A stretch of DNA of 64,000 bases from assembly GCF_907164915.1 (NCBI RefSeq), contig NC_061870.1, positions 22,667,348 to 22,731,347 on the forward strand, given 5' to 3'. This DNA comes from Impatiens glandulifera (Eukaryota; Streptophyta; Magnoliopsida; Ericales; Balsaminaceae). Within the stretch, counting starts at the first letter, position 1. Every line of letters begins with the position of its first letter. The notes under the pieces are model-generated. The model had not been told where the DNA came from and made no database searches. It saw only the letters and a list, made by a program, of their open reading frames with translations. The translations under genes and the position numbers were made by a program. Of the stretch, positions 8,868 to 59,149 are shown piece by piece.

Positions 8868-9294
8868 TGTCACGGACCATTTGTGGGAGGGCCCAATCAA
8901 GAGGAGTAGAGGTCCATCAAAGTCATGGCCCAATCCAAGAAGGGAGAAAAGTGGAGGAACAACCAAACAAGACTTAACCAAAACCACACTCAATCTTAAT
9001 GTCTTGTCCACACTCCATCTATTACCAAAACCACACTCAATCTATCTCCTTGCCCACACTCAACCTATCCATCATTAATGCATTTAATGCTCTACTTGTA
9101 ATTTACACAATCTCCTTTAAATACATGTAGTCACACCTTGTAAAGAGTTGATGTTGAATACAATCTTATTCTCAAGCTTTGTTTCTCTCTCTAAGTATTC
9201 TTGCATTGAGTTTTTTTGTTTCAAAAAGGTTTACTAAGTTAGAATCTCTTTGATCTAACTTAGTGCCACACAGATCTAATTTTAGCCCGTGACA
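8868..9294 (+). repeat. Gypsy 5' LTR, unit 1
   Basis: Starts TGTCACGGACC and ends CCCGTGACA, with a 7-bp terminal inverted repeat. This LTR is missing from unit 2. Confidence 0.95.
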
Positions 9295-9296
9295 AG

Positions 9297-9308
9297 TGGT
9301 ATCAGAGC
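9297..9308 (+). other. Primer binding site, tRNA-iMet
   Basis: A perfect TGGTATCAGAGC two bases after the 5' LTR. Confidence 0.95.
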
Positions 9309-9340
9309 AAGGTTGTGCTTCCTTACTCAAGTTGCAAGAG

Positions 9341-10491
9341 ATGGATTCGAGTGCCAACGTCATGAAGGTTCTGATCATCGAACAAGTGGACAAAGTGCCT
9401 AGGAGGGGCAAGTCCGTCGAGATGAGTGCTGCCATGGAAGCTCGGGTGACCCGGCTTGAGGAAGGCATGAGCGAGCACCAAGAAGCTCTCAAAGTGTTTA
9501 GCATAGTGGCCGATAGAGTGAAGGTACTTAAAGAAGAAGGTGAAAAGCTAGAGAACGAAATCATAGGAATCATCAACAACTCGAAGCATAGCATTCGAGA
9601 CGAAGTGCTTGGGATGTTTCGAGTAAATGTTGATGATATCCGAAATGAGGTACTTAAAGCAATCCGTGGAGAAGTCCAAGGAACGATCGATGCCTTCTAA
9701 AGGGAAATGATGGGAAGGATCGAAGGCTTGGAGTGGCGGATTGGGTGGAATGGAGGAGAGGAACTTTGAGGCGCGACACTCATCGAATTGATGTTCCCAA
9801 ACCAACTTCATTCAAAGGCTCAAAGAGCGCAAGGGAAGTGAATGACTTCATATGGAACATGGAGAGGTATTTTAAGGCATCCAACATACTTGAGGATCGC
9901 ATCAAGTTACAAACGATGCCATTTTTCTTGATAGATATGGCGTTGTTGTGGTGGAGGAGACGTGAAGCCGACATTGAACGAGGTACGTTACGAATGGAAA
10001 CATGGGTGGATTTCAAGACCGAGTTCAAACGTCAATTCTTCCCCAATAACGCTGATTTCGAAGCCTGAAAGCGTTTAAGCCAACTCACACACTCCCAATC
10101 CATAAAGGAGTATGTGAGGGAGTTCCAAGAGTTGATTCTAGAGTTACCTAGTCTCATCGAATAAGAGGCCATGTTCACCTTTGTTAATGGCCTAAATATG
10201 TGGGCGCAGTTAGAACTACAAAGGGCGAAAGTGCAGAACGTCTCGGAGGCAATTGCAATTGCAGAAAGGCTGATTGCGCTTAAAACGTCTGTGGATAGAC
10301 TAAAGTTCAATAAGGACAACAAGGAGAAAGGTGGGGGAGACCTCCAACCCAAGAAGTGGCAACCAAACAGAAATCCTAGAAGGCAAGCCGACGAAACGGG
10401 TAAGCCTAGAACTTGTCATATTTGTGGTGCCACCAACCAACTCAAGTTCATGTGTCATTTCAAAGGGAAAAAAGTTGCGGCAGTCCAATGA
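9341..10491 (+). pseudogene. Gypsy gag, unit 1
   Basis: The start is taken at ATG 9341 (MDSSANV), the first good start after the PBS. The frame is open to a TAA at 9698 where unit 2 has CGA (Arg). Both copies then share a TGA at about 9766 and a shift of frame into the gag core (WVDFKTEFKRQFFP). There is a private TGA near 10066 (CGA in unit 2) and a shared TAA near 10162. The C-terminal part carries a zinc knuckle at 10414-10455, CHICGATNQLKFMC, in which the conserved His of CCHC is Gln in both units. Confidence 0.9.
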
Positions 10492-10559
10492 GCCGAGTCT
10501 TCCGATGATGAAGAAGGGGCTCAACTGGGATCTTTAAGGTTTCTCAATGCTGTTAAGGC

Positions 10560-11040
10560 TAGCGTTGTTGAGCGAATTAAAGGAACGAAAAGGGGTTCAA
10601 TGTTTGTTGAGGCGATGATCGAAGGAAAGCGCGTGAAAGCCCTTGTCGACACTAAGGCAACCCACAACTTCATGCGTGAAGGAGTGGCTAAGGAGCTTGG
10701 TCTCCACAACAACCAATGACGGGGGACCATCAAGTCCGTGAACACGAAAGCCAAGTCGGTGGCCGGTGAAGCTAAGGAAGTGAAAATCCAGATCGGAGAC
10801 TAGAGCGGAAAGGTTTCATTTTCGGTAACCCCCCTTGACGATTACGATGTATTACTAGGACTATGATGGTTCGATCAAGTACGTGCGTGTATAATTCCCT
10901 ATTCTTATTTGTTGGTCATCTTGGATCACGAAAAATCTAGTGGCATACCGGTGAGAAGGGAACTAGACAGAATGGGAATGTTATCGGCTATACAATTTAA
11001 CCGAGGCCTCCAACAAGGTGAATAGACTTTTGCCGCTTTC
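10560..11040 (+). pseudogene. Gypsy aspartic protease, unit 1
   Basis: ALVDTKATHNFM (about 10639-10674) corresponds to the retroviral-type active site D-[ST]-G-A, but the Gly is Lys here (Arg in unit 2). Downstream stops include TGA after HNNQ, TAG after QIGD and TGA after VLLGL. The region leads into the RT linker. Confidence 0.8.
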
Positions 11041-11043
11041 GCT

Positions 11044-12460
11044 ATGATAAAAGATGAGGACGATTCCAAGGTGGGAGTAGAAGTGTCCAAAGAAGTCCAA
11101 GAAGTGTTGGAGGAGTTCAAAGACACGATGCCTAATGAACTCCCAAGGAAATTACCTCCAAAACGGGACGTGGACCATAAAATTGAGTTAGTGACAGACG
11201 CATTGCCACCATCTCGCACGCCCTATATAATGGCACCTTTCGAGCTAAAGGAGTTGCATAAACAATTGAAATAGTTGCTTGATGCGGGAATGATCCAGCC
11301 ATCCAAATCGCCCTACGGTGCTCCGGTGCTAATCCAAAAGAAGCACGATGGGTCATTGAGGATGTGTGTAGATTACCGGGCATTGAACAAGTTGACCGTT
11401 CGAAACAAGTATCCGATCCCGATTGTTGGTGAGTTATTCGATCAACTTGGAGGAGTCAAGTGGTTCTCAAAGATCGACTTACAGTCCAGATATTGGCAAG
11501 TGAGGATTGTAAAAGGGGATGAGACTTAGTCCACCATGGTTACGAGGTGTGGATCTTATGAATTTCTTGTCATGCCTTTTGGTCTAACAAATGCACCAGC
11601 CACATTCTACACCCTTATGAACAAGGTCTTCCACCCTTACTTAGATAAGTTTGTGATAGTTTACCTTGACGATATTGTCGTATACTCGTCCACCTTGCAT
11701 GAGCATGTGGAGTATTTGAGATTGGTTCTCCAAACCTTGCGAGAGAATGAGTTATACGCCAAATGGGAGAAGTGCTTGTTTGCCCAAGATCAAGTGATGT
11801 TTTTTTGTCATCGAGTGAAGTCAGGGTGTATTATGATGGATGAGGTCAAGGTCAAAGCCATTAAAGAATGGGAAGCGCCTAAAACCGTACCTCAACTTCG
11901 TTCATTCCTTGGTTTAGTGAATTACTACCGCAAGTTCGTCATAGGGTACTCAAAAATAGTCGGTCCCTTGACCGACCTTTTGAAGAAAGATCAATCATGG
12001 AGGTGGGATGAAAAGTGTGTGGAAGCCTTCGAGGGACTCAAGGCCAAAGTCACCAAACAACCGGTGTTAGCACTGCTGGACCATACCAGAGAGTACGAGG
12101 TGCAGACCGATGCATCTGACTTTGACATTGGAGGTGTGTTGATGTAAGAGGGGCACCCTATTGCATACGAAAGCCGAAAGTTAAACGATACGGAACGACA
12201 ATACACGGTCCATGAGAAAGATATGACGACAGTTGTGCATTGCTTACGTACATGGAGGCACTATTTGCTTGGAAGAAGATTCATGGTACATACCGACAAC
12301 GTAGCCACTAGCTACTTCCAAATGCAAAAGAAGTTAACTCCTAAGCAAGATAAGTGGCAAGAATTCTTAGCCGAGTTTGATTACACATTGGAGTACAAGG
12401 CGGGAGTTACCAATCGTGTAGCCGACGCTTTAAGCCGTAAGGCGGAGTTGGCCGCCATTA
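11044..12460 (+). pseudogene. Gypsy reverse transcriptase and RNase H, unit 1
   Basis: RT: KLPPKRDVDHKIELV leads to [42 protein letters not shown] and the catalytic YLDD (11662-11673). RNase H: QTDASDFDIGGVL, HTDNVATSYF and VADALSRK. Internal stops at 11272, 11527 and 12145 break it. The catalytic motifs survive although the frame does not, as expected for an old silent copy. Confidence 0.9.
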
Positions 12461-12599
12461 GTCAACCAGAGACCAACATAAGGGAACGCATACGGAATGG
12501 CCTAGAGAAGGACCCCAATGCGCTAAGACTCATGGAGTTTTCTCAAAGCGGAAAGACTCAAAGATTTTGGGTCGACGACGAATTACTCCTAACTAAAGG

Positions 12600-13945
12600 A
12601 AACCGTGTGTTCGTACCCAAGTGGGGATGTTTGCGTCACGACGTCTTGAAGGAGAGTCATGATTCAAAATGGGCGGGTCACCCAGAAATGCACGGCACCA
12701 TGGCGTTGATGGAGGAATCATATTATTGGCCCAAAATGTGGGATGATGTGGAAGCTTATGTACGGACTTGTCTTAATTGCCAACAAGACAAGATCAAACA
12801 ACATCAACCAGGCGGTTTGCTCCAACCATTATCAGTGTCGGAACATCCATTCGAAAGAATCTCGATGGATTACATCACAACACTACCCAAGTCCGATGGG
12901 TACGGGTCGATCATAGTGGTGGTTGATCATTTTTCCAAGTATGGAACTTTTATTCCGGCACCATCCGACATCATGGCTGTCGATACAACCAAGTTGTTCT
13001 TGAAACACATTGTGAAGCATTGGGGAGTACCAAAGACGATCGTCAACGATAGATATCATCGCTTCACTAGGAAATTTTGGTCGGAGTTGTTCAAGTTGAT
13101 GGGCACTAATTTAGAATTCTCAACCAGCGTCCATCCACAAACCGATGGATAGACAGAAAAGGTCAATGCCTTGCTATAATTATATCTAAGACACTACGTG
13201 AGCGCCAACCAAAAGGACTAGCGCAGACTTCTGAATACGACATAGTTCTCATATAATTTTCAAAAAAACGAATCAACTGGGCGCAGTCCGTTCGAACTAG
13301 CGACAGGGAGGCAACCAACGACTCCGCAAAGTTTGGCGACCAGTTATGTAGATCAAAGCCCGTCCGCCTATACATTTGCCAAATCCTTAGGAGAGGAGAA
13401 AGATCTTGCTCGAGCGTCTTTAAATAAGGCCGCCAAGAAGATGAAGAAGTGGGCGAACCTAAAAAGGCGTGCAGTTGAATTCGATGTGGGAACAAAGTAA
13501 TGGTGAAGTTTTTTCCACAACAATTCAAGTCTCTACGATCTGTGCACAAGGGGCTTGTACGTAGATATGAAGGACCATTTATAATCGAGGGGCGCGTGGG
13601 AAAGGTCGCATATCGATTGGAGTTGCCACCCAAACTAAAGATCCATCCGGTATTCCACGTAAGTAAACTTAAACTATTTCACGAGGATACAGAGAATGTA
13701 GAGAGGGGACAATCCAATCGAGCGGCAACGGTCGTCACGACATCCTTCGATAAGGATATCACGGAAATTATATCTCATAGAGTGATTAGAAGAAGGGGTG
13801 TACCCCCTTCCGTCGAATACTTTGTACGATGGAAAGACCTTCCCGATGCCGAGAATAGCTAGGAAAAAGAAGACCATTTGTGGCCATTCAAGCAGAAGAT
13901 CGAAGAATACCGGTCCAAAGTCGAGCCGAGGGCGGCCACAACTTA
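12600..13945 (+). pseudogene. Gypsy integrase with C-terminal chromodomain, unit 1
   Basis: The zinc-binding His/Cys region (HDVLKESHDSKWAGH ... CLNCQQDK) is followed by the DDE core: ISMDYITTLPKSDGYGS, then IVNDRYHRF, then HPQTDG-stop-TEKVN, so the Glu lies after an in-frame TAG at 13150. The C-terminal GPFII...LPPKLKIHPVFHVSKLK and a chromodomain (EYFVRWKDLPDAENS) follow. A 1-base loss in a G run near 13488 shifts the frame relative to unit 2, and a TAG at about 13860 replaces the Trp codon present in unit 2. Confidence 0.9.
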
Positions 13946-13957
13946 GGTGGGGGAGTA
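13945..13957 (+). other. Polypurine tract
   Basis: AGGTGGGGGAGTA lies directly before the 3' LTR and is also conserved before 46036. Confidence 0.85.
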
Positions 13958-14383
13958 TGTCACAGCCCATTTGTGGGAGGGCCCAATCAAGAGGAGTAGA
14001 GGTCCATCAAAGTCATGGCCCAATCCAAGAAGGGAGAAGAGTGGAGGAACAACCAAACAAGACTTAACCAAACCATACTCAATCTTAATGTCTTGTCCAC
14101 ATTCCATCTATTACCAAAACCACATTCAATCTATCTCCTTGCCCACACTCAACCTATCCGTCATTAATGCATTTAATGCTTTACTTGTAATTTACACAAT
14201 CTCCTTTAAATACATGTAGTCATACCTTGTAAATAGTTGATGTTGAATAGAATCTTATTCTCAAGCTTTGTTTCTCTCTCTAAGTATTCTTACATTGAAT
14301 TTTCTTGTTTCAAAAAGTCTTACTAAGTTATAATCTATTCGATCTAACTTAGTGCCACATAGATCTAATTTTATCCCATGACA
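13958..14383 (+). repeat. Gypsy 3' LTR, unit 1
   Basis: Starts TGTCACAGCCC and ends CCCATGACA. Both termini carry transitions that break the perfect inverted repeat seen in the 5' LTR. Confidence 0.95.
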
Positions 14384-16980: not shown

Positions 16981-18007
16981 GTATTCTCTACCGTTGTAGG
17001 TCCTTCTATTGTAGCTAAAACGACGTCTTTTTATTTTTTGTTTTATTGCGGCACAAAAGAATAAGAAGTTATATTTTGTATTTATCTCAGTATTTATAAT
17101 GATTTTTAAATATTAATTATAAAATAAATAAATTAAGTGGATATAACGAAGATTTCTCCTTTGACTATTTATGCGGTTTGCGAATAAGCATGTCATTTTA
17201 GTCCCGACGGGTCGGGGACTCGAAGGAACCGAACCGATTGGTTCAGGTAATTTGTTAGCTTTTCGGTTTTGGGTAATTTCGGGTCGAAACCGATTGGTTC
17301 CGGTTCGATTTCGGGTACCCGAAAAAACAATTCGTTTTTTTTAAATATTTTTTTAAATGTCTCTCTTTTTTTTTATTATTGATTTCATTTGATTCAGTTT
17401 CATTTATTATTAATTTTTTTTTATAATACAACATTTTTAATTTTTTTTATCTTCAATTATGCAATAAAATGACTGAACCAAAATGGAGATATGAGAGGGA
17501 ATAAAAGAAGAGGTAAAAGAAAGATAATTAGCCATTAGACAGAGAATTAATTTTTATTATTAACATTAATTTTTTTATAAATATTAATTTTTAATATTAA
17601 TATTTGTTTTTCTTATAAATATTATTTATTTTTATATGTTATAATTTAGGACGGTTTATTTTATTTTAATAAATATAATATTTTAAATTTTTTATTAAAT
17701 AATTTTTAAAATTTAATATAAATTGATTTGTTTTTATGTATTATTAAATATTTTAAAATTAAGTTAAAAAGTTAAAATTTTATTAAATTGATTAAATTAT
17801 GTTCAACTAATAAAAACATCTTAAAAAAAATAAATGTTCAAAAATATATTAAAGTAATTAAATGAGTAAAAATAATCGGATAAATTAAGTGTCCATTTTT
17901 TCTCGATTTTTTGGGCAATTTCGGATCCGGTTGAAATTTTAAACCCGGAAATTTGCCATATCTATTTGCCCGTTAAACCCGGCAAATTCCCAAGTAGCCA
18001 AGAAAAC
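16981..18007. other. AT-rich spacer upstream of the snoRNA locus
   Basis: The spacer has a short patch at 17200-17330 with repeated GAACCGA/TTCGGTT and GGTTCGG motifs, then poly-A/T-rich DNA. No gene is seen. Unit 2 has the same at 55200-56145. Confidence 0.5.
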
Positions 18008-18057
18008 AAACCCTAGCAAAAAGAAGGTGAAAACCTAATTTTGAGCTCCCTATATAA
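18008..18057 (+). promoter_or_regulatory. snoRNA polycistron promoter (telo-box and TATA), unit 1
   Basis: The telo-box AAACCCTA is at 18008-18015 and the TATA box TATATAA at 18051-18057. Telo-boxes upstream of a TATA box are typical of plant snoRNA and ribosomal-protein genes. A second telo-box just downstream has decayed to AAACCTAA here but is intact in unit 2 (56169-56176). Transcription would start near 18085. Confidence 0.75.
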
Positions 18058-18137
18058 TCACGCTATACCTGATCTCCAAATACGCACGATCGATAATAGT
18101 AGAGAGATCATCTTCTCACTTCTCGCCTACGTTTAAG

Positions 18138-18163
18138 ATGAGTTCTTTGTCTAATTTGTAAGT
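18138..18163 (+). other. Possible first-exon end with 5' splice site
   Basis: A short ATG-led stretch (ATGAGTTCTTTG) runs into GTAAGT at 18158-18163, a consensus plant donor. It may mark a short leader exon of the snoRNA host transcript, but the reading frame is too short to be called a gene. Unit 2 lacks these bases. Confidence 0.4.
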
Positions 18164-18185
18164 ATTATTTATGCTTGTGAAGATT

Positions 18186-18268
18186 GGACTGTGATGATTA
18201 ATCACAATAGGTCTCGTTCGTCGTAATGGTTAATATTCCTTGACGAAAATCTACTGTTTACTGAGTCC
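18186..18268 (+). ncRNA. U30: Box C/D snoRNA, U30-like (copy 1, unit 1)
   Basis: The terminal stem GGAC/GTCC encloses C box GTGATGA (18191-18197) and D box CTGA (18261-18264). The C' box is TTGACGA (18240-18246). The guide GGTCTCGTTCGT (18210-18221) is complementary to plant 18S rRNA ACGAACGAGACC and extends one more base upstream. With CGTA (18222-18225) as D' box, the +5 rule selects the second A of CGAACG, the nucleotide methylated by U30 (human 18S A1383). First member of a polycistronic cluster. Confidence 0.88.
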
Positions 18269-18316
18269 TTTCTCACATCTTCTCCCATTTCTTGCCCCTT
18301 ATTCATTTTCATTCTA

Positions 18317-18399
18317 TGGCCAATGATTAAATTTATTTAATTGACAAGCATATGTCTGAATTTTCATTTGTTGATACATTAATCTTCTCTATGAGGCCA
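18317..18399 (+). ncRNA. U27: Box C/D snoRNA, U27-like (unit 1)
   Basis: The guide GACAAGCATATG (18343-18354) is complementary to 18S CATATGCTTGTC, and one base later stands the D' box CTGA (18356-18359). The +5 rule gives A28 of 18S, the known U27 target. The terminal stem is TGGCC/GGCCA. The C box ATGATTA (18323-18329) and the terminal D box (ATGA just before GGCC) are each one base off consensus, so activity is likely but not certain. Confidence 0.82.
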
Positions 18400-18532
18400 A
18401 TTTTATAATTTCTTCAATCTTTCTGCTTGATTCAATAAATTTTGATCTTTAATTAGGGTATCTCCCCCCTTTGTTTTAAATTAAAGCTGTCACCTTTAAT
18501 CCTTTGAAAGGTTGTAGATTTTTTATGAAGTT

Positions 18533-18625
18533 GGGACTATGACGATTACATAATTGGTCTCGTTCGTCGTAATGGCTTTGCCTTGACGACAATTCTGATA
18601 TATCACCACCCATAAACTGAGTCCC
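18533..18625 (+). ncRNA. U30: Box C/D snoRNA, U30-like (copy 2, unit 1)
   Basis: The stem GGGACT/AGTCCC encloses C box ATGACGA (18539-18545, one base off consensus) and D box CTGA (18617-18620). The same 12-base 18S guide lies at 18556-18567, followed by CGTA and C' TTGACGA (18583-18589). The half between C' and D is unlike copy 1, so only the 18S A1383-type guide is under visible constraint. Confidence 0.85.
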
Positions 18626-18690
18626 ATTTCGAATTGTCTCTAAATGACAAATCTTTGTTTTTATCTTAATTTTTCTTTGTTTTCTACTGT

Positions 18691-18757
18691 ATGGGCAATG
18701 ATCAATCTTATTAAAAAGGCTACCTGTTATGGTTTAACTGTTAAATCTATGTTTTTG
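18691..18757 (+). ncRNA. Possible snoRNA remnant between U30 and U16
   Basis: ATGGGCAATGATCA resembles the 5' end of the U27-like gene, and GGCAA/TTGCC could close a stem. No U27 guide or CTGA box is present. ACCTGTTAT (about 18722-18730) is complementary to 9 bases of 18S (ATAACAGGT), the U25 target area, but a 9-base match can be chance. Confidence 0.25.
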
Positions 18758-18835
18758 TTGCCTATGATGAATGAAAATAGTATTTACAGTATGAACTTCA
18801 TGATTACTACAATACTGCCTTCCTTCTGAGTCTCT
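18758..18835 (+). ncRNA. U16: Box C/D snoRNA, U16-like (unit 1)
   Basis: C box ATGATGA (18764-18770), a C'-like ATGATTA (18800-18806) and D box CTGA (18826-18829). Directly before D, the guide CTGCCTTCCTT (18815-18825) is complementary to 18S AAGGAAGGCAG. The +5 rule selects the third A of AAGGAAGG, the U16 target (human 18S A484). The terminal stem is weak. The open frame seen across this site is incidental. Confidence 0.82.
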
Positions 18836-18892
18836 TGGTTGTTTTCTACTTTCTGTAATTTTGTTATTGGTTTTCATTTGGATTGTTACTTG

Positions 18893-19015
18893 GGGATTGG
18901 ATGATGATTGTGCACATAGTTCTTCTTGAAGACATTCTTGAGTTTATTCTCAGGAAAATGATTTTTAAGATTTTATTTGTGCGTATAGCAAGATTCCTTT
19001 CTGCTTGAGTAATCT
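18893..19015 (+). ncRNA. Degenerate copy of the dual-guide 25S snoRNA (unit 1)
   Basis: C box ATGATGA (18901-18907) is followed by ATTGTGCACATAGTTC, homologous to the start of the 19111 snoRNA. The guide is reduced to CATAGTTC, the second guide is lost, and no stem or proper D box is found. Interpreted as a pseudogene from tandem duplication. Confidence 0.5.
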
Positions 19016-19110
19016 CTTGATACAGCAATAGAGATCTGCTCCAATGTAACTGGATTACATTTCTATATTTTAAATTTGATTTTTTTACTGTTAAAAAGAG
19101 ATTTATGTTG

Positions 19111-19208
19111 ATGGGTCAAATGATGATTGTAAATGCATAGTTCAGATGAAAAAATCTTTATGATTAATTTAATCTCAAATAGTCTTTCGCTCCTATCTGA
19201 TGACCCAT
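19111..19208 (+). ncRNA. Box C/D snoRNA with two 25S rRNA guides (unit 1)
   Basis: A perfect 8-bp terminal stem ATGGGTCA/TGACCCAT encloses C box ATGATGA (19120-19126) and D box CTGA (19197-19200). The guide before D, AGTCTTTCGCTCCTAT (19181-19196), pairs with 25S AUAGGGGCGAAAGACU over 16 positions with one G-U. The +5 rule points to the second G of the G run. The upstream guide GCATAGTTCA (19135-19144), before a degenerate D' (ATGA), matches 25S UGAACUAUGC and selects the A methylated by U18 (yeast A649). Both guides are unchanged in unit 2. I cannot name the family for the second guide. Confidence 0.85.
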
Positions 19209-19457
19209 TCTTCTTTTTAAAGTTGGTTCTTTGTCTCTTTCAACTACCCAAGAACACAAATTCTAGAGAAGAGAACTGGAAAACCATGATCTTGGAATCA
19301 TGATAAACCTTATCACACTATCCACGTGATGAATAAGTAAGGTCATTTTCTGATTTTGCCTACCATTTGATTACTAAAGTGTTTTTTTTTACAATGTTAG
19401 CCTATTGTGATGTTTTATGGTTAGATTATTTTATGAATTTACTATTTTTGTGAAGGT

Positions 19458-19543
19458 GGGACTGTGATGAATACACAATATAGGTCTCGTTCGTCGTAAT
19501 GGCAAATTTGCCTTGACGAAATTTCTTCTATTAACTGAGTCCT
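19458..19543 (+). ncRNA. U30: Box C/D snoRNA, U30-like (copy 3, unit 1)
   Basis: The stem GGAC/GTCC, C box GTGATGA (19464-19470), 18S guide (19483-19494), CGTA, C' TTGACGA (19513-19519) and D CTGA (19535-19538) are all intact. A small hairpin (GGCAAATTTGCC) lies between D' and C'. It has no counterpart in unit 2, where this part of the cluster is deleted. Confidence 0.87.
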
Positions 19544-19593
19544 ATTTCACATTGTCTAATATTTTTATTGTTTTCTCATTGTTGAAGATATTA

Positions 19594-19676
19594 TGGCCTA
19601 TGATAAATTTCATTTAATTGACAAGCATATGTCTGAATTTACACATGTTGATAGATTAATTTTCTCTTTGAGGCCA
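19594..19676 (+). ncRNA. U27: Box C/D snoRNA, U27-like (copy 2, unit 1)
   Basis: The guide GACAAGCATATG (19620-19631) and D' CTGA (19633-19636) are intact. The C box is ATGATAA (19600-19606), the terminal D is TTGA and the stem GGCC/GGCC closes it. It is missing from unit 2. Confidence 0.75.
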
Positions 19677-19877
19677 ATTTCCTAATTTCTTCAATGTATC
19701 TCCATGATTCAATGAATTTTGATCTTGAGCTTTAGAATTTTTATTTAAATAGTCTGAACAAGCTTTATCGATTCTGAAATTAGAGTATCTTCCACCTTTG
19801 CTTTAAATTAAAGGTGTACCCATTAATCCTTCCTTTGAAACTTGTAGATTTTTTATGAAGTTGGGTTTATGTTTTTG

Positions 19878-19948
19878 TTATCCATGATGAATGAAAATAG
19901 TATTTTCAGTATGAACTTCATGATTACTACAATACTCTTCTGACTATC
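19878..19948 (+). pseudogene. U16-like snoRNA pseudogene (unit 1)
   Basis: C box ATGATGA (19884-19890) and D box CTGA (19940-19943) remain, but the guide has shrunk from CTGCCTTCCTT to CTCTT, so pairing to 18S is lost. The U30-like copy expected before it is also deleted. The same damaged form stands at 57695 in unit 2, so the loss predates the large duplication. Confidence 0.7.
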
Positions 19949-21442
19949 TGGGTTGTTTTCTGCTTTATGTATCGTCCTGGTTTGTTTTCTGCATTATTAC
20001 AAAGTTTATTTTCAGGAAAATGCTTTTGAGTAATCTCTTCTCCATCAATATCCATCAATAGAGAGTTGCTCCAATGTAACTTTATTTTATTTATATATTT
20101 TTTTATTCTTTTACTATATATTTGAACCAATTATATTAAGAGAAATGATAGGACAATGATTTGGAAAAAAAGATAAGGTCACGAATCTAGTTGTCACAAT
20201 TATCTTCAAATTTATTTTCGGCCCATTGTTGTCAAATTATCTCCTCCATTCATTTTTCTTTGACGAAAATCACCCATACTTTCAAAACCTTATATATATT
20301 TATTGTGTGAACTCCAAGTCTTTCGTAGTTTTTTTAGCAATAGTTATGATTAAGATTTTTTTGATTGATAATGAACAATAAAAAAGTTTTATGTTTAACT
20401 ATCGTTGAAAAAGTTTATAGAGATTTGAGTTCATCGATTGAATAAATTTAGGTTTTTGAGTTTGGAGACGATTTTCATTAGAGAGAAATGAAAGAAGGAG
20501 ATGATTTGACGAAAATGTGCGGGAAATGAATTTAGAGATTTTTTATATCTCTGTAGATTTAAAAATGTCCTTAACTTAGGATATAAAGTTTAATGGTTTT
20601 GTAACCACCGGTTTTGAATTGTTGAGTGTCGAGAAACTCATGGAAGATGACTATTAAAAACAAGATTGAAATATTTTTAAGTATATGCAATTTTACTTTA
20701 CATATTTTTTGAATATATATATATATTCAAATTCATCACTTTTAACAATCTTGTTAATTTCAATTTTCATATAATTTTTTTTTACATCTTATTAGTAATT
20801 ATTTTCTTTGTTAGAAGTCATTAATATCATTCGAGTAAATTTAGTTAATATGAGTAGTTCTTATTTGTTAAATTTTGAAATGTAGAATTTTCAACTTTTT
20901 TCACTTAATAGACTCGTAATTCAATCCTTGATTATACATAATGATTGTCTCTTAATATAGTATTTATTCTTAACAAAATATCATTTTTTAAATAATATTT
21001 TTATCTAATCTTAATTATTTTCTTGTAATTTTATTTTTTATAAGTTACAAATTTAATATTGGGATCTTTTTAATTTTTATTTTGCCCTCTTATATATTAT
21101 TTTTTCTTTTCTAAATTAATAAAATTAATATTTTTCTGATAAAAAATAACAATTGTTCCACAAACTAGTTTTACCCAAATATCAAATAGTTTTAAATTAA
21201 ACAAAAATTAAAGAATATAGTAAAGTGACAATGAAAATCTAACTTTATAAACTCAATAATATCATGATCGATTTTCATTAAAAATATTTTATTAAAAACA
21301 TTTTAATTAAAAAATGTTATTAGAAAACTGTAATTTAAAAAAAAAAATATTATCTTTTATTTACATTATATATAATAAATAAATAAATAAAATAATGGAC
21401 AGTCACATCCTTCTACTCGCACTAACTAAATTATTAAACAAA
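19949..21442. other. Spacer downstream of the snoRNA locus, unit 1
   Basis: AT-rich, with no gene recognised. It aligns with 57766-59149 of unit 2 up to the Helitron-like insertion point. Confidence 0.5.
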
Positions 21443-25245: not shown

Positions 25246-26820
25246 TATATATATAAATAAAGAAAATAAAGATTAGAGATAAAAAAAAAAATAGGTACGA
25301 AATTAATATATATATAGATTTATTTGAGAGAAATATTTAATATTGTTATTTAAAATATTTATTTATATATAACCACCTATTTAAAATAAATAGTCTTAAC
25401 TTACCTAATATATATATATAATTTTAAATTTTTATATATTATGATAAGTAGAAAGTGGAAAAAAATTTAATTAAAAAAAAGAGTAATATTAGGAATTAAT
25501 TAGAAAGATAAATTATGAAATGAAAAAATTCTTGAATATAAAATAATGAATTGAGATAAAAATAATAATGAATTTGTGTATAAACCTTCATATTCATCTA
25601 TTAAACATTATTATATATTGTTATTATATATATATAAATAAATATGTTATGTAATACTATATATTTTAATATAATTTTTTTTTTATATTATTAGTGTGAA
25701 AAAATATAAATACCTATATAGTAAGAGTAAGAAAAAAAATACTTAATAATTAGATTAAGAAAAATAGTTAAATATATATAAAAAAATAATTTAAAAAGTA
25801 GAGTAATTTATAGAGTTAATTAAGAGAGAAATTATGAATTGAGATAAAAATAATTTGTGTATAAACCTTCGTATTCATCTATTAAACATTATTATATATA
25901 TTGTTATTATATATATAAAAATAAATATGTTATGTAATATTATATATCTTTATGTAAAAAATATTTTATATTATTAATGTGAAAAAATATAAAAATTTAT
26001 ATAGTAAGTAGAAAAAAATACTTAACAATTAGATTAAAAAAGAGAAATATATATATTATGAAAGATATTTATTCTCATACTTAAAATGCATTAAACATCT
26101 TACTAATTTATCCCAACCCAAAAACTCAAACTCAAAAGAATATTCTCAGAATATTCATTTTTATAATAAATTTTAATTTTTTCAATATTATCTATATATT
26201 TATCTAAAATTACAAATTGAACTCATAACTTTATAACAACTTATTAATTACTTTTAAATTCTCATTCAATTATTTATACAACTGCATAAAATAAATTAAA
26301 CATTATTACATAAACACAAATTACATCTCACAAACAAAAAAAATACAACAAAACAAACCTTGTTAAAATTATCATATATATATATATTATTATATATATT
26401 GTTATTATATATAAAAATAAATATGTTAGGTAATATTATATATTTTAATATAAAAAATATTTTATATTATTAGTGTGAAAAAATATAAATATCTATATAG
26501 TGAAAGTATGAAAAAAAAAATACTTAATAATTAGATTAAGAAAAAGAGTGAAATATATAAAGAAATTAATTTAAAAAGTAGAGTAATTTATAGAGTTAAT
26601 AATTTGTGTATAAACCTTCATATTCATCTATTAAACATTATTATATATATTGTTATTATATATATATATATAATATTATATATCTTTGTGTAAAAATATT
26701 AATAAAAAAAATATTTTATATTATTAGTGTGAAATATATAAAAATTTATACAATAAGTAGAAAAAAATACTTAATAATTAAATAAAAAAGAGAAATATAT
26801 ATATTATGAAAGAAATTTAT

Positions 26821-27410
26821 ACATCTCTAACCCAAATACCTATTCTCATACTTAAAATGCAGTAAACATGTTAGTAATTTATCTCCAACCCAAAAACTCA
26901 AACTCAAAAGAATATTCTCAGAATATTTATTTTTATAATAAATTTTAATTTTTTCAATATTATCTATATATTTATCTAAAATTACAAATTGAACCCATAA
27001 CTTTACAACAACTTAGTAATTCTTTTAAAATTCTCATTCAATTATTTATACAACTACATAAAATAAATTAAACATTATTACATAAACACAAATTACATCT
27101 CACAAATAAAAAAAATACAACAAAACAAACCTTATTAAAATTATTATGAATTAAACATATAAATAAATTATATAAATAAATTAAAATATAAATAAATAAA
27201 ATATGTAAACAAATTAAAATATAAATAAGTTATATAAATTAATTAAAAACAAACTAAAATGACTGAAATGAAAGTTTTAAAAACCTTTTGAGTATGTGAA
27301 CAGTGTCACTGCATATTTGGGTTTGGGGGAGAAATATTTTGTAGAAAAACTTAAAATGCAGTTGAGTGACCTATAATGGAGTTGTTTGCTGGTGGGTTGG
27401 AGATGATCTT
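26821..27410. mobile_element. Possible MITE with CATCTCYAACCC termini
   Basis: ACATCTCTAACCC at 26821 is inverted relative to GGGTTGGAGATGAT at 27394-27407. Such ends resemble small PIF/Harbinger-type elements of plants. A second copy occupies 29492-30085. Confidence 0.4.
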
Positions 27411-28132
27411 ATATTATGAGAGAGAAAATAAGTAAGATAAATAAATTAGGAAAGAGAAATTACCTGAATTTTGTGAATGATTGTAGAGTTAGAAACTACA
27501 AAAGGAGACCGAGGATGTTTTTTCAGCTGCCTGAAATGATCAAATTCATGGAAAAAAATACAAATCAGTGAAAACGGATTGTTGAAATATAACATAATGC
27601 AAATTCAATTATTGAAAACATGATATTGATAGAGAAATTGAGAAGATTATGAATAGAGATAGCACACGACAAAAGGAGATCGACCAAATATCACTCTTCT
27701 CTCTCCAGTTGAACCTTGTTAATCTAAGATTTTTTATAGGAATAAAATATTTGGATGGAGTAATATATTGGTTTAATTGTAGTTATATACGTTAATATAA
27801 TCAATATTTATTAATAGTTGATATAATCAATATTTATTGCTAAATTCAATTAATAGATAATTATAATATGATAACTGAAATTTTTTATTTTTACATATTT
27901 TCATTAATTATAATATGATAATTGAAATTTTTATTTTTACATATTTTCATTAATTATAATATAATAACTGAAATTTTTTATTTTTACATATTTTCATATT
28001 TAATATTTAATGTTAAACTGAATTAATATAAATAAAATAATTTTATAATGAATATAATATAATAACTGAAACACTTATTATTTTTGCAATTTTTTATAAT
28101 TAATATTAATGTTAAATTTAATTAATAAAAAA

Positions 28133-28137
<5 letters not shown>

Positions 28138-28181
<44 letters not shown>
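28138..28181. repeat. (AT)n microsatellite
   Basis: A run of about 22 AT units. The matching site in the second copy (30813-30836) has about 12, the main length difference between the two 2.66-kb copies. Confidence 0.9.
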
Positions 28182-28185
<4 letters not shown>

Positions 28186-29491
28186 GTAACGGAGATAGAT
28201 AATTATGAAATTTATTTAATAAAATTGATAAAAAATATATATTTTATATTATTAGTGAGAAAATATATATATGGTAAAGGAAATAAAAAAATTAATTAAT
28301 AAAGATAAATGAAGAGAGAGAAATATATATATCTAACACATAAAAATATCTATGATGATGTAGATCATTTTGGAAAGAGCGTGATGTACACCTCCAACAT
28401 TTCAAAATTAAGTGTCATTAGATATATATAGTTAAATATATATAAAAAAATAATTTAAAAAGTAGAGTAATTTATAGAGTTAATTAAGAGAGAAATTATG
28501 AATTGAGATAAAAATAATTTGTGTATAAACCTTCGTATTCATCTATTAAACATTATTATATATATTGTTATTATATATATAAAAATAAATATGTTATGTA
28601 ATATTATATATCTTTATGTAAAAAATATTTTATATTATTAATGTGAAAAAATATAAAAATTTATATAGTAAGTAGAAAAAAATACTTAACAATTAGATTA
28701 AAAAAGAGAAATATATATATTATGAAAGATATTTATTCTCATACTTAAAATGCATTAAACATCTTACTAATTTATCCCAACCCAAAAACTCAAACTCAAA
28801 AGAATATTCTCAGAATATTCATTTTTATAATAAATTTTAATTTTTTCAATATTATCTATATATTTATCTAAAATTACAAATTGAACTCATAACTTTATAA
28901 CAACTTATTAATTACTTTTAAATTCTCATTCAATTATTTATACAACTGCATAAAATAAATTAAACATTATTACATAAACACAAATTACATCTCACAAACA
29001 AAAAAAATACAACAAAACAAACCTTGTTAAAATTATCATATATATATATATATTATTATATATATTGTTATTATATATAAAAATAAATATGTTAGGTAAT
29101 ATTATATATTTTAATATAAAAAATATTTTATATTATTAGTGTGAAAAAATATAAATATCTATATAGTGAAAGTATGAAAAAAAAATACTTAATAATTAGA
29201 TTAAGAAAAAGAGTGAAATATATAAAGAAATTAATTTAAAAAGTAGAGTAATTTATAGAGTTAATAATTTGTGTATAAACCTTCATATTCATCTATTAAA
29301 CATTATTATATATATTGTTATTATATATATATATATATATATAATATTATATATCTTTGTGTAAAAATATTAATAAAAAAAATATTTTATATTATTAGTG
29401 TGAAATATATAAAAATTTATACAATAAGTAGAAAAAAATACTTAATAATTAAATAAAAAAGAGAAATATATATATTATGAAAGAAATTTAT

Positions 29492-30085
29492 ACATCTCTA
29501 ACCCAAATACCTATTCTCATACTTAAAATGCAGTAAACATGTTAGTAATTTATCTCCAACCCAAAAACTCAAACTCAAAAGAATATTCTCAGAATATTTA
29601 TTTTTATAATAAATTTTAATTTTTTCAATATTATCTATATATTTATCTAAAATTACAAATTGAACCTATAACTTTACAACAACTTAAACTTAGTAATTCT
29701 TTTAAAATTCTCATTCAATTATTTATACAACTGCATAAAATAAATTAAACATTATTACATAAACACAAATTACATCTCACAAATAAAAAAAATACAACAA
29801 AACAAACCTTATTAAAATTATCATGAATTAAACATATAAATAAATTATATAAATAAATTAAAATATAAATAAATAAAATATGTAAACAAATTAAAATATA
29901 AATAAGTTATATAAATTAATTAAAAACAAACTAAAATGACTGAAATGAAAGTTTTAAAAACCTTTTGAGTATGTGAACAGTGTCACTGCATATTTGGGTT
30001 TGGGGGAGAAATATTTTGTAGAAAAACTTAAAATGCAGTTGAGTGACCTATAATGGAGTTGTTTGCTGGTGGTTGGAGATGATCT
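29492..30085. mobile_element. Second copy of the possible MITE
   Basis: Same termini as 26821-27410, duplicated with the surrounding 2.66-kb unit. Confidence 0.4.
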
Positions 30086-31239
30086 TATATTATGAGAGAG
30101 AAAATAAGTAAGATAAATAAATTAGGAAAGAGAAATTACCTGAATTTTGTGAATGATTGTAGAGTTAGAAACTACAAAAGGAGACCGAGGATGTTTTTTC
30201 AGCTGCCTGAAATGATCAAATTCATGGAAAAAAATACAAATCAGTGAAAACGGATTGTTGAAATATAACATAATGCAAATTCAATTATTGAAAACATGAT
30301 ATTGATAGAGAAATTGAGAAGATTATGAATAGAGATAGCACACGACAAAAGGAGATCGACCAAATATCACTCTTCTCTCTCCAGTTGAACCTTGTTAATC
30401 TAAGATTTTTTATAGGAATAAAATATTTGGATGGAGTAATATATTGGTTTAATTGTAGTTATATACGTTAATATAATCAATATTTATTGATAGTTGATAT
30501 AATCAATATTTATTGCTAAATTCAATTAATAGATAATTATAATATGATAACTGAAATTTTTTATTTTTACATATTTTCATTAATTATAATATGATAACTG
30601 AAATTTTTATTTTTACATATTTTCATTAATTATAATATAATAACTGAAATTTTTTATTTTTACATATTTTCATATTTAATATTTAATGTTAAACTGAATT
30701 AATATAAATAAAATAATTTTATAATGAATATAATATAATAACTGAAACTTTGATTATTTTTACAATTTTTTATAATTAATATTAATGCTAAATTTAATTA
30801 ATAAAAAATATTAATATATATATATATATATATATAAAAGAGTAACAGAGATAGATAATTATGAAACTTATTTAATAGAATTGATAAAAAATATATATTT
30901 TATATTATTAGTGAGAAAATATATATATGGTAAAGGAAATAAAAAAATTAATTAATAAAGATAAATGAAGAGAGAGAAATATATATATCTAACACATAAA
31001 AATATCTATGATGATGTAGATCATTTTGGAAAGAGCGTGATGTACACCTCCAACATTTCAAAATTAAGCGTCATTAGATATATATAGATATAGATAATTG
31101 AGAGTTACATGTCTCTATTAGGACTAACTAAATTAATAAACAAAGTAAATGAAAGTTAAATGCCTCTATTAATACTAACGGTAATTTATATAATATTCAC
31201 TGCCTTCAATTAGTGATATACATGTTGCACATCTCTAAT

Positions 31240-40463: not shown

Positions 40464-41741
40464 TGGAAAGATAGAAGTCGATTGTTTGAAAGAGAATGGT
40501 CGGTGAGGTGATCGGAGAAGAGAACATGAATTAGATACTTTGTAAGAAACTATAATATTGAGAATATGAAAATATTATATTATCTTGTATGTATATTAGT
40601 TTACTTTATATACAAGAAATAAATAAACAAAGTTAAAATTGACTAAGTTTGTGAGGTGTGGATCAAAATTGTATCTTATTTTTAAATATATAGGAACCTT
40701 GTTTTAATTGGGCATATTGAATTTAATTTGTTTGCTTAATGTAATATATGTATATATTCTTTTATTTTGTTTTTAGACATAATATTTATATATTGGTTTT
40801 AAATAAGTTACAAATTAAATATTTATAGTTCAAATATTTTTTTTGGTTAAATTAAATTTGTTTTTTTTATTCAATTAGAAGTTTAAAAAACCTATTAATT
40901 TATGGAACACTATCCATTAAATCAAAACTACCTTATAAAATAATATAAGGTAAATGACTTCCACAATATTCCTCATCCTCTTCGGACTACTCCATTGAAT
41001 CAAATAGTTCGTGTTAAATCTCGGACAACACTATCGAATCTTGCTCTTTGTGTTTATCCTCCTTCTTCTAGGACAACCCCATCGAACCAACTACCCATGT
41101 TTCTTCTCGGACAACAATATCGAATCTCATTACTTATTATTTTTCATCCTCCTCAGACAGACCTATCGAATTAAACTACTCGTATTCCTCCTTAGAAAGT
41201 ACCGTTGATTCTCGCTCATCCTGTTTCTTCTCCTCTTTAGACAGTCCCAACGAATCTAATTACTCGTGTTACTCCTCATCCTATTCGGACAACACTATTG
41301 AATTCAACTGCTAGTGTTTTCCATATCCAAGTCAATTTATTAGAAAATCAATATGAATAACAAGTAATGTGACATTCTCAATCTCTTTATCAAACATATT
41401 TGTTAAAAGATAAAGAGATGGTATTGAATGTTATATTGAATTATATATGTTAAAGAAACTAATATAATAATGATATTATCACAATGTTATAATATTGTGA
41501 TTATATTTTACATATATATTCTTCTATTTACGATAACTTCTCACCTCAAATAATATTTGAGTAGTTTGTTTTCCCTTTTTCTTTCGCTTTTCTATTTCTT
41601 GGTTGGAAGCCACTTATGCTTCTCTCGATGGTCTGAACGTGCTCCACATGCAAAGAAGTGCACAATCATGCACTTCATCTTCAACTTTCGTTTGTTTTTT
41701 ATTTTTGTTCTTAGATTTCATACTGCTTTTATTTTGGTTCA
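40464..41741. other. Spacer with Ser-coding repeat, unit 2
   Basis: Repeats the 7365-8636 interval of unit 1, including the degenerate Ser/Asp/Glu repeat (40968-41312) and the small inverted repeats. It then jumps straight into Gypsy gag because of a deletion. Confidence 0.7.
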
Positions 41742-41748
41742 AGTGAAT

Positions 41749-42611
41749 GTTGATGATATCCGAAATGAGGTACTTGAAGCAATACGTGGAGAAGTCCAAG
41801 GCACGATTGATGCCTTCCGAAGGGAAATGATGGGAAGGATCGAAGGCTTGGAGGGACGGATTGGGTGGAATGGAGGAGAGGAACTTTGAGGTGCGACACT
41901 CATCAAATTGATGTTCCCAAACCAACTTCATTCAAAGGCTCAAAGAGCGCAAGGGAAGTGAATGACTTCATATGGAACATGGGGAGGTATTTTAAGGCAT
42001 CCAACATACTTAAGGATCGCATCAAGTTGCAAACGATGCCATTTTTCTTGATAGATATGGCGTTGTTGTGGTGGAGGAGACGTGAAGCCGACATTGAACG
42101 AGGTGCGTTACGAATGGAAACATGGGTGGATTTCAAGACCGAGTTCAAACGTCAATTCTTTCCCAAAAATGCTGATTTCGAAGCTCGAAAGCGTTTAAGC
42201 CAACTCACACACTCCCAATCCATAAAGGAGTATGTGAGGGAGTTCCAAGAGTTGATTATAGAGTTACCTAGTCTCATCGAATAAGAGACCATGTTCACCT
42301 TTGTTAATGGCCTAAAGATGTGGGCGCAGTTAGAACTACAAAGGGCGAAAGTGCAGAACGTCTCAGAGGCAATTACAATTGCAGAAAGGCTGATTGAGCT
42401 TAAAACGTCTGTGGATAGACCAAAATTCAATAAGGACAACAAGGAGAAAGGTGGGGGAGACCTCCAACCCAAGAAGTGGCAACCAAACAACAATCCTAAA
42501 AGGCAAGTCGACGAAACAGGTAAGCCTAGAACTTGTCATATTTGTGGTGCCACCAACCAACTCAAGTTCATGTGTCCTTTCAAAGGGAAGAAAGTTGCGG
42601 CAGTCCAATGA
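41749..42611 (+). pseudogene. Gypsy gag, unit 2
   Basis: Begins inside gag (VNVDDIRNEVLEAI). It retains Arg codons at two places where unit 1 has stops, but shares the TGA near 41887, the TAA near 42284 and the TGA at 42609. The zinc knuckle has the same His-to-Gln change. Confidence 0.88.
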
Positions 42612-42679
42612 GCCGAGTCTTCCGATGATGAAGAAGGGGCTCAACTGGGATCTTTAAGGTTTCTCAATGCTGTTAAGGC

Positions 42680-44330: not shown

Positions 44331-44343
44331 CCATGAGAAAGAT

Positions 44344-45300: not shown

Positions 45301-45517
45301 ATATCTAAGACACTATGTGAGCGCCAACCAAAAGGACTAACGCAGACTTCTGAATACGACATAGTTCTCATATAATTTTCAAAAAAGCGAATCAACTGGG
45401 CGCAGTACGTTCGAACTAGGTTATGTAGGTCAAAGCCCGTCCGCCTATACATTTGCCAAATCCTTAGGAGAGGAGGAAGATCTTGCTCGAGCGTCTTTAG
45501 ATAAGGTCGCCAAGAAG

Positions 45518-46024: not shown

Positions 46025-46035
46025 GTGGGGGAGTA

Positions 46036-54010: not shown

Positions 54011-54114
54011 TCATAAGGGAAGGTTCAAAGGGTTACACCTACCTATCCTATGTAGAATTCAACTGTTGAACTTTTCACCGGGTTAATCTTTCAATTTCCA
54101 TTAATGTGGGGGAT

Positions 54115-54957: not shown

Positions 54958-54962
54958 ATTAA

Positions 54963-56145: not shown

Positions 56146-56196
56146 AAACCCTAGCAAAAAGAAGGTGAAAACCCTAATCTTGAACTCCCTATATAA
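56146..56196 (+). promoter_or_regulatory. snoRNA polycistron promoter (two telo-boxes and TATA), unit 2
   Basis: AAACCCTA at 56146-56153 and 56169-56176, then TATATAA at 56190-56196. This is better preserved than in unit 1. However, the region just downstream has lost 31 bp that in unit 1 contains the ATG and the GTAAGT donor. Confidence 0.75.
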
Positions 56197-56291: not shown

Positions 56292-56374
56292 GGACTGTGA
56301 TGATTAATCACAATAGGTCTCGTTCGTCGTAATGGTTAATATTCCTTGACGAAAATCTACTGTTTACTGAGTCC
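56292..56374 (+). ncRNA. U30: Box C/D snoRNA, U30-like (copy 1, unit 2)
   Basis: Stem GGAC/GTCC, C box GTGATGA (56297-56303), 18S guide GGTCTCGTTCGT (56316-56327), CGTA, TTGACGA and D CTGA (56367-56370). It appears identical to its unit 1 counterpart. Confidence 0.88.
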
Positions 56375-56422: not shown

Positions 56423-56505
56423 TGGCCAATGATTAAATTTATTTAATTGACAAGCATATGTCTGAATTTACATTTGTTGATACATTAATCTTCTCTATGA
56501 GGCCA
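56423..56505 (+). ncRNA. U27: Box C/D snoRNA, U27-like (unit 2)
   Basis: Stem TGGCC/GGCCA, C box ATGATTA, guide GACAAGCATATG (56449-56460) for 18S A28, and CTGA at 56462-56465. The degenerate terminal D (ATGA) is conserved between units. Confidence 0.82.
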
Positions 56506-56638: not shown

Positions 56639-56731
56639 GGGACTATGACGATTACATAATTGGTCTCGTTCGTCGTAATGGCTTTGCCTTGACGACAATT
56701 CTGATATATCACCACCCATAAACTGAGTCCC
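56639..56731 (+). ncRNA. U30: Box C/D snoRNA, U30-like (copy 2, unit 2)
   Basis: Stem GGGACT/AGTCCC, C box ATGACGA (56645-56651), guide 56662-56673 and D CTGA 56723-56726, as in unit 1. Confidence 0.85.
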
Positions 56732-56863: not shown

Positions 56864-56940
56864 TTGCCTATGATGAATGAAAATAGTATTTACAGTATGA
56901 TCTTCATGATTACTACAATACTGCCTTCCTTCTGAGTCTC
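56864..56940 (+). ncRNA. U16: Box C/D snoRNA, U16-like (unit 2)
   Basis: C box ATGATGA (56870-56876), guide CTGCCTTCCTT (56921-56931) for 18S AAGGAAGGCAG and D CTGA (56932-56935). It differs from unit 1 only outside the boxes and guide. Confidence 0.82.
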
Positions 56941-57204: not shown

Positions 57205-57302
57205 ATGGGTCAAATGATGATTGTAAATGCATAGTTCAGATGAAAAAATCTTTATGATTAATTTAATCTCAAATAGTCTTTCGCTCCTATCTGATGACCC
57301 AT
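57205..57302 (+). ncRNA. Box C/D snoRNA with two 25S rRNA guides (unit 2)
   Basis: The stem ATGGGTCA/TGACCCAT, C box ATGATGA (57214-57220), guide GCATAGTTCA (57229-57238), guide AGTCTTTCGCTCCTAT (57275-57290) and D CTGA (57291-57294) are all unchanged from unit 1, although neighbouring spacer bases differ. Confidence 0.85.
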
Positions 57303-57518: not shown

Positions 57519-57577
57519 TGGGACTGATGATTAAATTGGTCTAGTTTGTTGTAATTTCTTCGCCTAAACTTAGTCCC
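57519..57577 (+). pseudogene. U30-like snoRNA pseudogene (unit 2)
   Basis: GGGACTGATGA and AGTCCC ends remain, but the guide has two changes (GGTCTAGTTTGT), the C' box is gone and D reads CTTA. It corresponds to the U30-like copy that unit 1 has lost entirely before 19878. Confidence 0.75.
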
Positions 57578-57694: not shown

Positions 57695-57765
57695 TTGCCT
57701 ATGATGAATGAAAATAGTATTTTTAGTATGAACTTCATGATTACTACAATACTCTTCTGACTATC
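57695..57765 (+). pseudogene. U16-like snoRNA pseudogene (unit 2)
   Basis: C box ATGATGA (57701-57707) and D CTGA (57757-57760) with the same shortened guide (CTCTT) as 19878. Confidence 0.7.
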
Positions 57766-59149
57766 TGGGTTATTTTCTGCTTTTATGTATCTCCTGGGTT
57801 GTTTTCTGCATTATTACACATAGTTTATATTTTTTTTTATTCTTTTGATATATATTTGAACCAATTATATTAAGAGAAATGATAGGACGATTTGGAAAAA
57901 AGATCAAGGTCACAAATTCACAAATCTAGTTGTCACAATTATCTCTAAATTTATTTTCGGCCTTTTGTTGTCAAATTATCTCCTCCATTCATCTTTCTTC
58001 AACGAAAATCACCCATACTTTCAAAACCTTGTATATTCATTGTGTGAACTCCAAGTCTTTCGTAGTTTTTTTAGCAATAGTTATGCCTAAGATTCATTTT
58101 TATTGATAATGAACCTTTTAAGGTTTTTGTATTATCTTAAAATGTTTGTTATCCATAAAAAGGTTTTATGTTTAACTATTGTTGAAAAAGTTTTTAGAGA
58201 TTTGAGTTCATCGATTGAATAAATTTAGGTTTTTGAGTTCGGAGATGATTTTCATTAGAGAGAAATGAAAGAAGGAGATGATTTGACGACAATGTGCGGG
58301 AAATGAATTTAAAGATTTTTTTATATCTTTATAGATTTAAAAATGTTTGTAACATAATTTAGAGCTTGTCTGGTTCAGTTGTGACTACACTAGTCACAAC
58401 TGATTAAAAAAGTTTTTTGAACTTTTCTTCACTCAAGTAATGAGTGTCCTTAACTTAGGATATAAAGCTTTAATGGTTTTGTAACCACCGGTTTTGAATC
58501 GATGGAGATGAGTGTCCATGGAAGATGACTATTAAAAACAAGATTGAAACATTTGTAAGTATATGTAATTTTACTTTACATATTTTTTCAATATATATAT
58601 ATTCAAATGCATCACTTTTAACAATTTTGTTAATTTCAATTTTCATATAAATATTTTTTTTACATTTTCTTAGTAATTATATTTTATTAGTTATTATTTT
58701 CTTTGTTGGAAGTCATTAAGATCATTCAAGTAAATTTACTTAATATGAGGAGTTCTTATTTGTTAAATTTTGAAATGTAGAATTTTTAACTTTTTTTCAC
58801 TTGACATGAAATTATACTCATAATTCAATCCTTGATTATACATAATGATTGTCTCAATATAGTATCTATTCTTAACAAAATATCAAATCGTTTTAAATTA
58901 AACAAAAATTAATGAATATAGTTCAAGAGACAATGAAAATCTAATTTTACAAACCCAATATCTCAGAATTTTCATTAAAAATATTTTATTAAAACATTTT
59001 AATTAAAAAATGTTATTAGAAAACTGTAATTTTGAGAATAATTAGAAAAAATAATATTATCTTTTATCTACATTATATATAATAAATAAATAAATAAAAT
59101 AATAGACAGTCACATCCTTCTACTAGCACTAACTAAATTATTAAACAAA
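57766..59149. other. Spacer downstream of the snoRNA locus, unit 2
   Basis: AT-rich and collinear with 19949-21442, with an extra segment of about 100 bp near 58343-58447. It ends at the intact target site of the unit 1 Helitron-like insertion. Confidence 0.6.
58376..58402. repeat. Perfect 12-bp inverted repeat in a unit-2-specific insert
   Basis: CAGTTGTGACTA, a 3-base loop, then TAGTCACAACTG. The insert begins near GAGCTTGTCTGGTTCAG, reminiscent of small Harbinger/Tourist-like elements. Absent from unit 1 near 20570. Confidence 0.5.

Follow-up and report, generated by a model that had tools for sequence, protein, structure and literature searches.

The window analysed here, 64,000 nucleotides of Impatiens glandulifera (contig NC_061870.1 of assembly GCF_907164915.1, positions 22,667,348 to 22,731,347 of the forward strand), holds a cluster of box C/D small nucleolar RNA (snoRNA) genes that is present twice (Table 1). 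Cluster A had been proposed at 18008-19950 by an earlier sequence-only reading, and is borne out: the Rfam search proposed there matched C/D families across 18186-19675, with four matches in 18008-19950 above the gathering score (one snosnR60_Z15, three snoZ43) and three below it. The gene counts agree as well, namely three SnoR32 copies (then 'U30-like'), two of U27, one U83 (then 'U16-like') and one 25S guide (U80). The cluster itself, the U27 target A28 and the 25S guide were retained, while the U16/A440 and U18 targets were dropped and the 'U30-like' snoRNA, correctly seen as a C/D snoRNA in three copies, was renamed as plant SnoR32 (RF00330). U30 itself is the guide for 25S A2322 in the plant table of PMC8053127. 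Cluster B (56292-57302 plus decayed copies), about 38 kb from A, was absent from the earlier account.

The analysis shows the snoRNA families and their boxes, the terminal stems for the most part, the complementarity of the guides, the duplication, and a smaller number of substitutions in snoRNA bodies than in spacers. The guide targets were typed-in sequences of Arabidopsis 18S and 25S rRNA (and U6), which were then verified. At the sites tabulated by RiboMeth-seq in PMC8053127, the typed 18S had the right base in register in 35 of 35 cases, and the typed 25S agreed in 73 of 74 with small local offsets. Targets were placed by the D+5 rule for guides ending at a D or D' box, the boxes being scanned as exact CTGA or with at most one mismatch. 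Guides of at least 10 bp at D or D', with D+5 on a methylated nucleotide, were found by script for 18S A28 and U1266 and for 25S A826 and G917.

RF00330 comprises three SnoR32 copies in cluster A and two in B. Copies a and c carry the canonical boxes (C box RUGAUGA, D box CUGA near the terminal stem), copy a having GTGATGA, CTGA and a GGAC/GTCC stem. The C box of copy b is UGACGA, as in the Rfam consensus. The D+5 guide of copy b pairs with 18S at U1266 (14 Watson-Crick (WC) and 2 GU pairs, 1 mismatch). In the other guide of SnoR32, GGUCUCGUUCGU, pairing with 18S extends as far as A1326 and brings A1330 to position 5 if the next CGUA is taken as a degenerate D' box. Such a D' box has two mismatches and was read by hand; the script did not pick it up, as it permits one. 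The 18S base 1327 was typed as C but might be U, and the G of the guide can pair with either. Both U1266 and A1330 are assigned to SnoR32 in the site table of PMC8053127, which also describes the A1330 guide as adjoining a degenerated box D'.

U80 has the boxes of a C/D snoRNA and two guides: the one at the D' box (ATGA) forms 10 bp and points to 25S A826, the one at the D box (CTGA) forms 16 WC and 1 GU pairs and points to 25S G917. The same table assigns both sites to U80 (PMC8053127). As a separate observation, eukaryotic 25S over the U80 target region was found in public collections in one contig, from a bacterial genome titled Mangrovicoccus ximenensis, where a 245-base stretch is 94.7% identical to the typed plant 25S. 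This is perhaps contamination or misassembly. No 25S piece was found in viral contigs.

In U27, a D' guide shared by copies a and b pairs over 12 bp with 18S and points by D+5 to A28, the target named in the sequence-only reading and assigned to U27 in the table of PMC8053127. The stretch before the D box pairs with U6 small nuclear RNA, through 11 WC pairs in copy a and, in copy b, with the same U6 stretch but one GU within the first 11. When the copy-a guide was shuffled 20,000 times by mononucleotide, 5 of the shuffled sequences formed 11 WC pairs at some place in U6. With GU allowed, the observed 12 was reached in 43 of 20,000 (copy a) and 117 of 20,000 (copy b), and WC-only pairing of copy b with U6 gave no qualifying run. 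A four-base D box would place the U6 target at A42, a five-base one at A43; Table 3 of PMC8053127 assigns A43 to U27 in Arabidopsis. By 18S guide, stem and U6 guide, these copies would be expected to work like U27.

The gene formerly taken for U16 matches RF01179 (snoU83) in Rfam, and its boxes are those of a C/D snoRNA. Its guide pairs with 18S 420-430 (11 bp, all WC, score 11), and D+5 falls on A424, which we take to be the equivalent of human A468. Given the family match and the guide, it would work like U83. The shuffle control covered known sites and not the all-position rRNA scan, so that the A424 assignment depends on these two together. Two other candidates were rejected: neither a U16/SnoR15 guide for 18S A440 nor a U18-type guide for 25S A661 was found in either cluster at a score of at least 8.5 and with at most one mismatch in the boxes. 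The Arabidopsis table of PMC8053127 lists A440, assigned to SnoR15 and U16, and does not list A424. Yeast snR52 guides 18S A420 (PMC9418376), and A420 and A424 are probably equivalent because both lie 16 bases off (A420 from A436, A424 from A440). A literature search returned nothing joining SNORD83 with snR52 and 18S, nor SNORD83A with A468 and 18S, and the available portions of PMC8351944, PMC7464842, PMC8393311, PMC8817022 and PMC8575768 held nothing on the A424, SnoR32, U80 or U83 questions. A testable point is whether this plant, which has an A424 guide, methylates 18S A424, a site absent from the Arabidopsis table.

Table 1. Features of the two snoRNA clusters, in window coordinates.
Feature	Cluster	Position	Strand	Basis
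Telo-box	A	18008..18015	+	AAACCCTA, exact match
TATA-like site	A	18050..18058	+	CTATATAAT, read directly
SnoR32 copy a	A	18186..18268	+	RF00330, 49.4 bits; deletion relative to copy b
U27 copy a	A	18318..18398	+	RF00086 (SNORD27), 41.5 bits, below cut-off 52
SnoR32 copy b	A	18534..18624	+	RF00330, 84.7 bits
U83-like C/D snoRNA	A	18759..18833	+	RF01179 (snoU83), 45.5 bits, cut-off 50
Possible decayed U80-like copy	A	18900..18965	+	C-box stretch kept, guides lost; weak alignment with U80; 12-base gap relative to B
U80	A	19111..19208	+	RF00309 (snosnR60_Z15), 87.2 bits
SnoR32 copy c	A	19459..19542	+	RF00330, 56.9 bits; no counterpart in B
U27 copy b	A	19595..19675	+	RF00086, 41.8 bits, below cut-off 52; no counterpart in B
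Decayed U83	A	19879..19946	+	Alignment; 6 nt of guide deleted
Telo-boxes (two)	B	56146-56153, 56169-56176	+	Exact matches
SnoR32 copy a	B	56292..56374	+	RF00330 match, alignment
U27 copy a	B	56424..56504	+	1 substitution relative to A
SnoR32 copy b	B	56640..56730	+	RF00330 match, alignment
U83	B	56865..56939	+	1 substitution relative to A
U80	B	57205..57302	+	87.2 bits; identical to A
Decayed SnoR32 (B only)	B	57521..57576	+	RF00330, 20.5 bits, cut-off 43; alignment
Decayed U83	B	57696..57771	+	RF01179, 25.1 bits, cut-off 50; alignment

The elements of the putative telo-box/TATA promoter of the earlier reading are present at both clusters, as exact telo-boxes followed by a TATA-like site, which in B reads CTATATAAA. 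A telo-box alone would count for little, because its 8-mers occur six times in the window against 2.5 expected.

Compared with itself, the window shows a segment of about 32 kb duplicated in tandem, with 4095-36040 (A) repeated at 37101-64000 (B, cut by the window end). Its blocks are 84-99% identical, and the snoRNA cluster is present in both halves. Aligned between the clusters, the five snoRNA bodies that have a partner show 2 substitutions in 428 positions and no gap, a count that leaves out SnoR32 copy c and U27 copy b; the aligned spacers (18130-19344) differ at 20 of 746 positions, with 41 more gapped. On substitutions only, the bodies have diverged less than the spacers (Fisher p = 0.006). 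A decayed U83 is found in both clusters and hence predates the duplication, as does the possible U80-like relic, for which there is no Rfam match at 18900-18965 itself. Overall, the locus shows clearly how members are gained and decay within a snoRNA cluster that has been duplicated in tandem; the losses are unequal, and the guides have stayed intact.

The two clusters differ in content, with SnoR32 copy c and U27 copy b confined to A and the decayed SnoR32 to B. This could mean that a single cluster is active and that the other has become redundant and is being lost, and the second telo-box of B is one base off in A, so that no match is found there. With near-identical paired bodies, and full-length SnoR32, U27, U83 and U80 in each cluster, this is a possible but not the favored outcome, and it would refine the reading as a snoRNA gene and not oppose it. 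It is unlikely that both clusters are non-functional relics, decaying among long terminal repeat (LTR) elements while other loci of the genome supply the snoRNAs. Broken members do exist (U83 in both clusters, SnoR32 in B, possibly the U80-like copy), as do retroelements inside and around the duplicated block and the non-consensus C and D boxes of U27. However, the main members have kept their guides whole, the paired bodies are free of indels and have fewer substitutions than the spacers, and both clusters have retained the telo-box and the TATA-like site.

When guides to known Arabidopsis 18S/25S 2'-O-methylation sites were sought with an exact CTGA and a score of at least 12, four were found on the + strand of 18000-19950 and none on its - strand. 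Outside 17900-20300 and 56000-58400, on both strands (118,396 bases), none reached a score of 11. In 400 dinucleotide shuffles of the region the mean was 0.01 at score 12 (maximum 1) and 0.20 at score 9, and no shuffle gave four or more. C and D boxes are short and several extra guide matches outside the named snoRNAs look chance-like, but with Rfam E-values down to 3e-17 (whole window) and this shuffle result, chance matching in AT-rich DNA can be set aside as an explanation of the clusters.

With a probability of roughly 0.93, the stretch is read as a polycistronic box C/D snoRNA gene of plants, in which the conserved SnoR32-U27-U80 cluster has been expanded, has U83 in addition and lies in a tandem duplication. 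Promoter use, co-transcription, processing and methylation are inferred, and would proceed as follows. RNA polymerase II would start at the telo-box/TATA promoter and yield a single precursor, out of which each snoRNA would be cut and trimmed. The released snoRNAs would be packed with SNU13, NOP56, NOP58 and fibrillarin. Their guides would then direct 2'-O-methylation of 18S A28 (U27), 18S A1330 and U1266 (SnoR32) and 25S A826 and G917 (U80), and further of probably 18S A424 (U83) and of U6 A42 or A43 (U27 D guide).

Several points weigh against this reading. The evidence is that of sequence, and the guide targets were typed in. Site II (TGGGCY) was not found within 1 kb upstream of either cluster; according to PMC4660826, the usual promoter set of plant polycistronic snoRNA genes is a telo-box and Site II upstream of the TATA box. 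The U27 genes of both clusters score 41.1-41.8 bits against a gathering score of 52, and the C and D boxes of both copies depart from the letters of the consensus, in changes that stay complementary. U83 scores 45.5 (A) and 44.5 (B) against 50, and its terminal stem is weak, with a mismatch in the 3-pair Rfam stem. Gene conversion could account for part of the low divergence of the bodies. There are also stray guide matches. With one box mismatch, known sites were matched in A for 25S A2215 (18687, score 9.9) and 18S A545 (19704, 9.7), and in B for 18S A1758 (57352, 9.2) and 25S A2221 (57564, 10.3), the last scoring slightly above the accepted A826 (10). None of these four falls in a named snoRNA unless it is a decayed one, and they are taken as chance. 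Beside the known sites and A424, the all-position scan with exact CTGA and a score of at least 10 left unexplained three matches in A, at the two boxes 19350 and 19754, and a single match in B, at 57524 (score 12.8, 6 GU).

The altered boxes of U27 are the most unusual detail of the locus and provide a lead of their own. Copy a has the C box AUGAUUA and the D box AUGA, copy b AUGAUAA and UUGA, where the Rfam consensus is AUGAUGA and CUGA. In the kink-turn, C-box G5 faces D-box C1 (stem II), so that the copies carry U-A (a) and A-U (b) at this pair. In archaeal structures, the stem II G-C base pair is read by the Nop5/Nop58 protein. Tentatively, and with more doubt than confidence, it may be proposed that both paralogs are functional despite two different Watson-Crick replacements of this pair and, jointly, that the D box is read as five nucleotides (UAUGA or UUUGA) via a further A-U pair, which would decide between U6 A42 and A43. 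If true, U27 would offer a naturally occurring exchange of the base pair that Nop5/Nop58 reads in archaeal structures, as well as a D-guide counterpart of a register shift that a 2021 paper knew for D' guides only. The guide search described in PMC8053127 accepted NNGA boxes, and a passage of PMC6770171 reports a full-length guide still active after the U-U pair of stem II, which is not the pair altered here, was changed to A-U or U-A. With two paralogs only, and a chance of roughly 1 in 9 by our own estimate that complementarity arises in both, the box swap is a lead and not a finding. The testable point is whether a C/D kink-turn tolerates other bases in place of its conserved G-C pair as long as they remain complementary.

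The stretch after U80 (19250-19345; 57360-57466) is near-unchanged between the clusters (95 of 96 positions), and is a possible unknown RNA or chance. At about 19250-19350 there are C-box-like and CTGA sequences and a 25S guide match (10 WC and 4 GU pairs, not a known site). An unknown snoRNA is not claimed there, because the guide lies off known sites, the CTGA is missing in B and Rfam gives no match. The same holds for a stretch near 18690, which by eye resembles a decayed U27 and has no Rfam match.

The remainder of the window is rich in retroelements. An element with reverse transcriptase, RNase H and integrase domains (8868-14383, in A) is shared by both halves, its second copy lying at 41735-46461 in B with RNase H and chromodomain frames; its 427-base repeats are 94.6% identical. 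An LTR-type element at 48906-54960 occurs in B only and is recent, since its 846-base terminal repeats (48906-49751, 54115-54960) are 99.8% identical. A further 2.7-kb tandem duplication (25764-31096) is 98% identical and holds shorter, more diverged repeats. A Pfam scan for a host protein gene covered 15 frames, ten of them from a set of 49, and matched 5, all with retroelement domains; one frame compared with solved structures gave no match, and no tRNA genes were found in the window.

Compared with the known families, SnoR32 shares full-length matches, boxes and guide with Rfam snoZ43 (plant SnoR32) but has lost the second guide (U1266) in copies a and c. U80 agrees with RF00309 in boxes, 5-bp stem and both guides, and nothing notable sets it apart. 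U27 shares the 18S A28 guide (GACAAGCAUAUG) with SNORD27 and the U6 guide with Arabidopsis U27; it differs from RF00086 in its C box (UGAUUA/UGAUAA, not UGAUGA) and D box (AUGA/UUGA, not CUGA) and in scoring below gathering. U83 shares with snoU83 and, by target, with yeast snR52 (18S A420) an 11-bp guide at a probably equivalent 18S position, but it falls below the gathering score and A424 stands outside the Arabidopsis methylation table.

As such the locus is routine, for its core composition has already been described for a plant snoRNA cluster, and small details such as the altered U27 boxes are of specialist interest. In PMC5122169, a cluster 'U32.2-U27.2-U80.2' of Arabidopsis is cited together with the rice cluster 43 'U27-U80b'; the text there links this Arabidopsis name to rice cluster 20 as well as to cluster 43. 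We take U32 in that paper to be SnoR32. Because such an Arabidopsis cluster is cited there, the present locus is seen as belonging, in expanded form, to a type of cluster already known from plants. As far as the descriptions in that paper go, SnoR32, U27 and U80 stand in one cluster and are named in that order, as here, whereas the Impatiens locus has multiple copies of both SnoR32 and U27, includes U83 and decayed members, and is duplicated in tandem.

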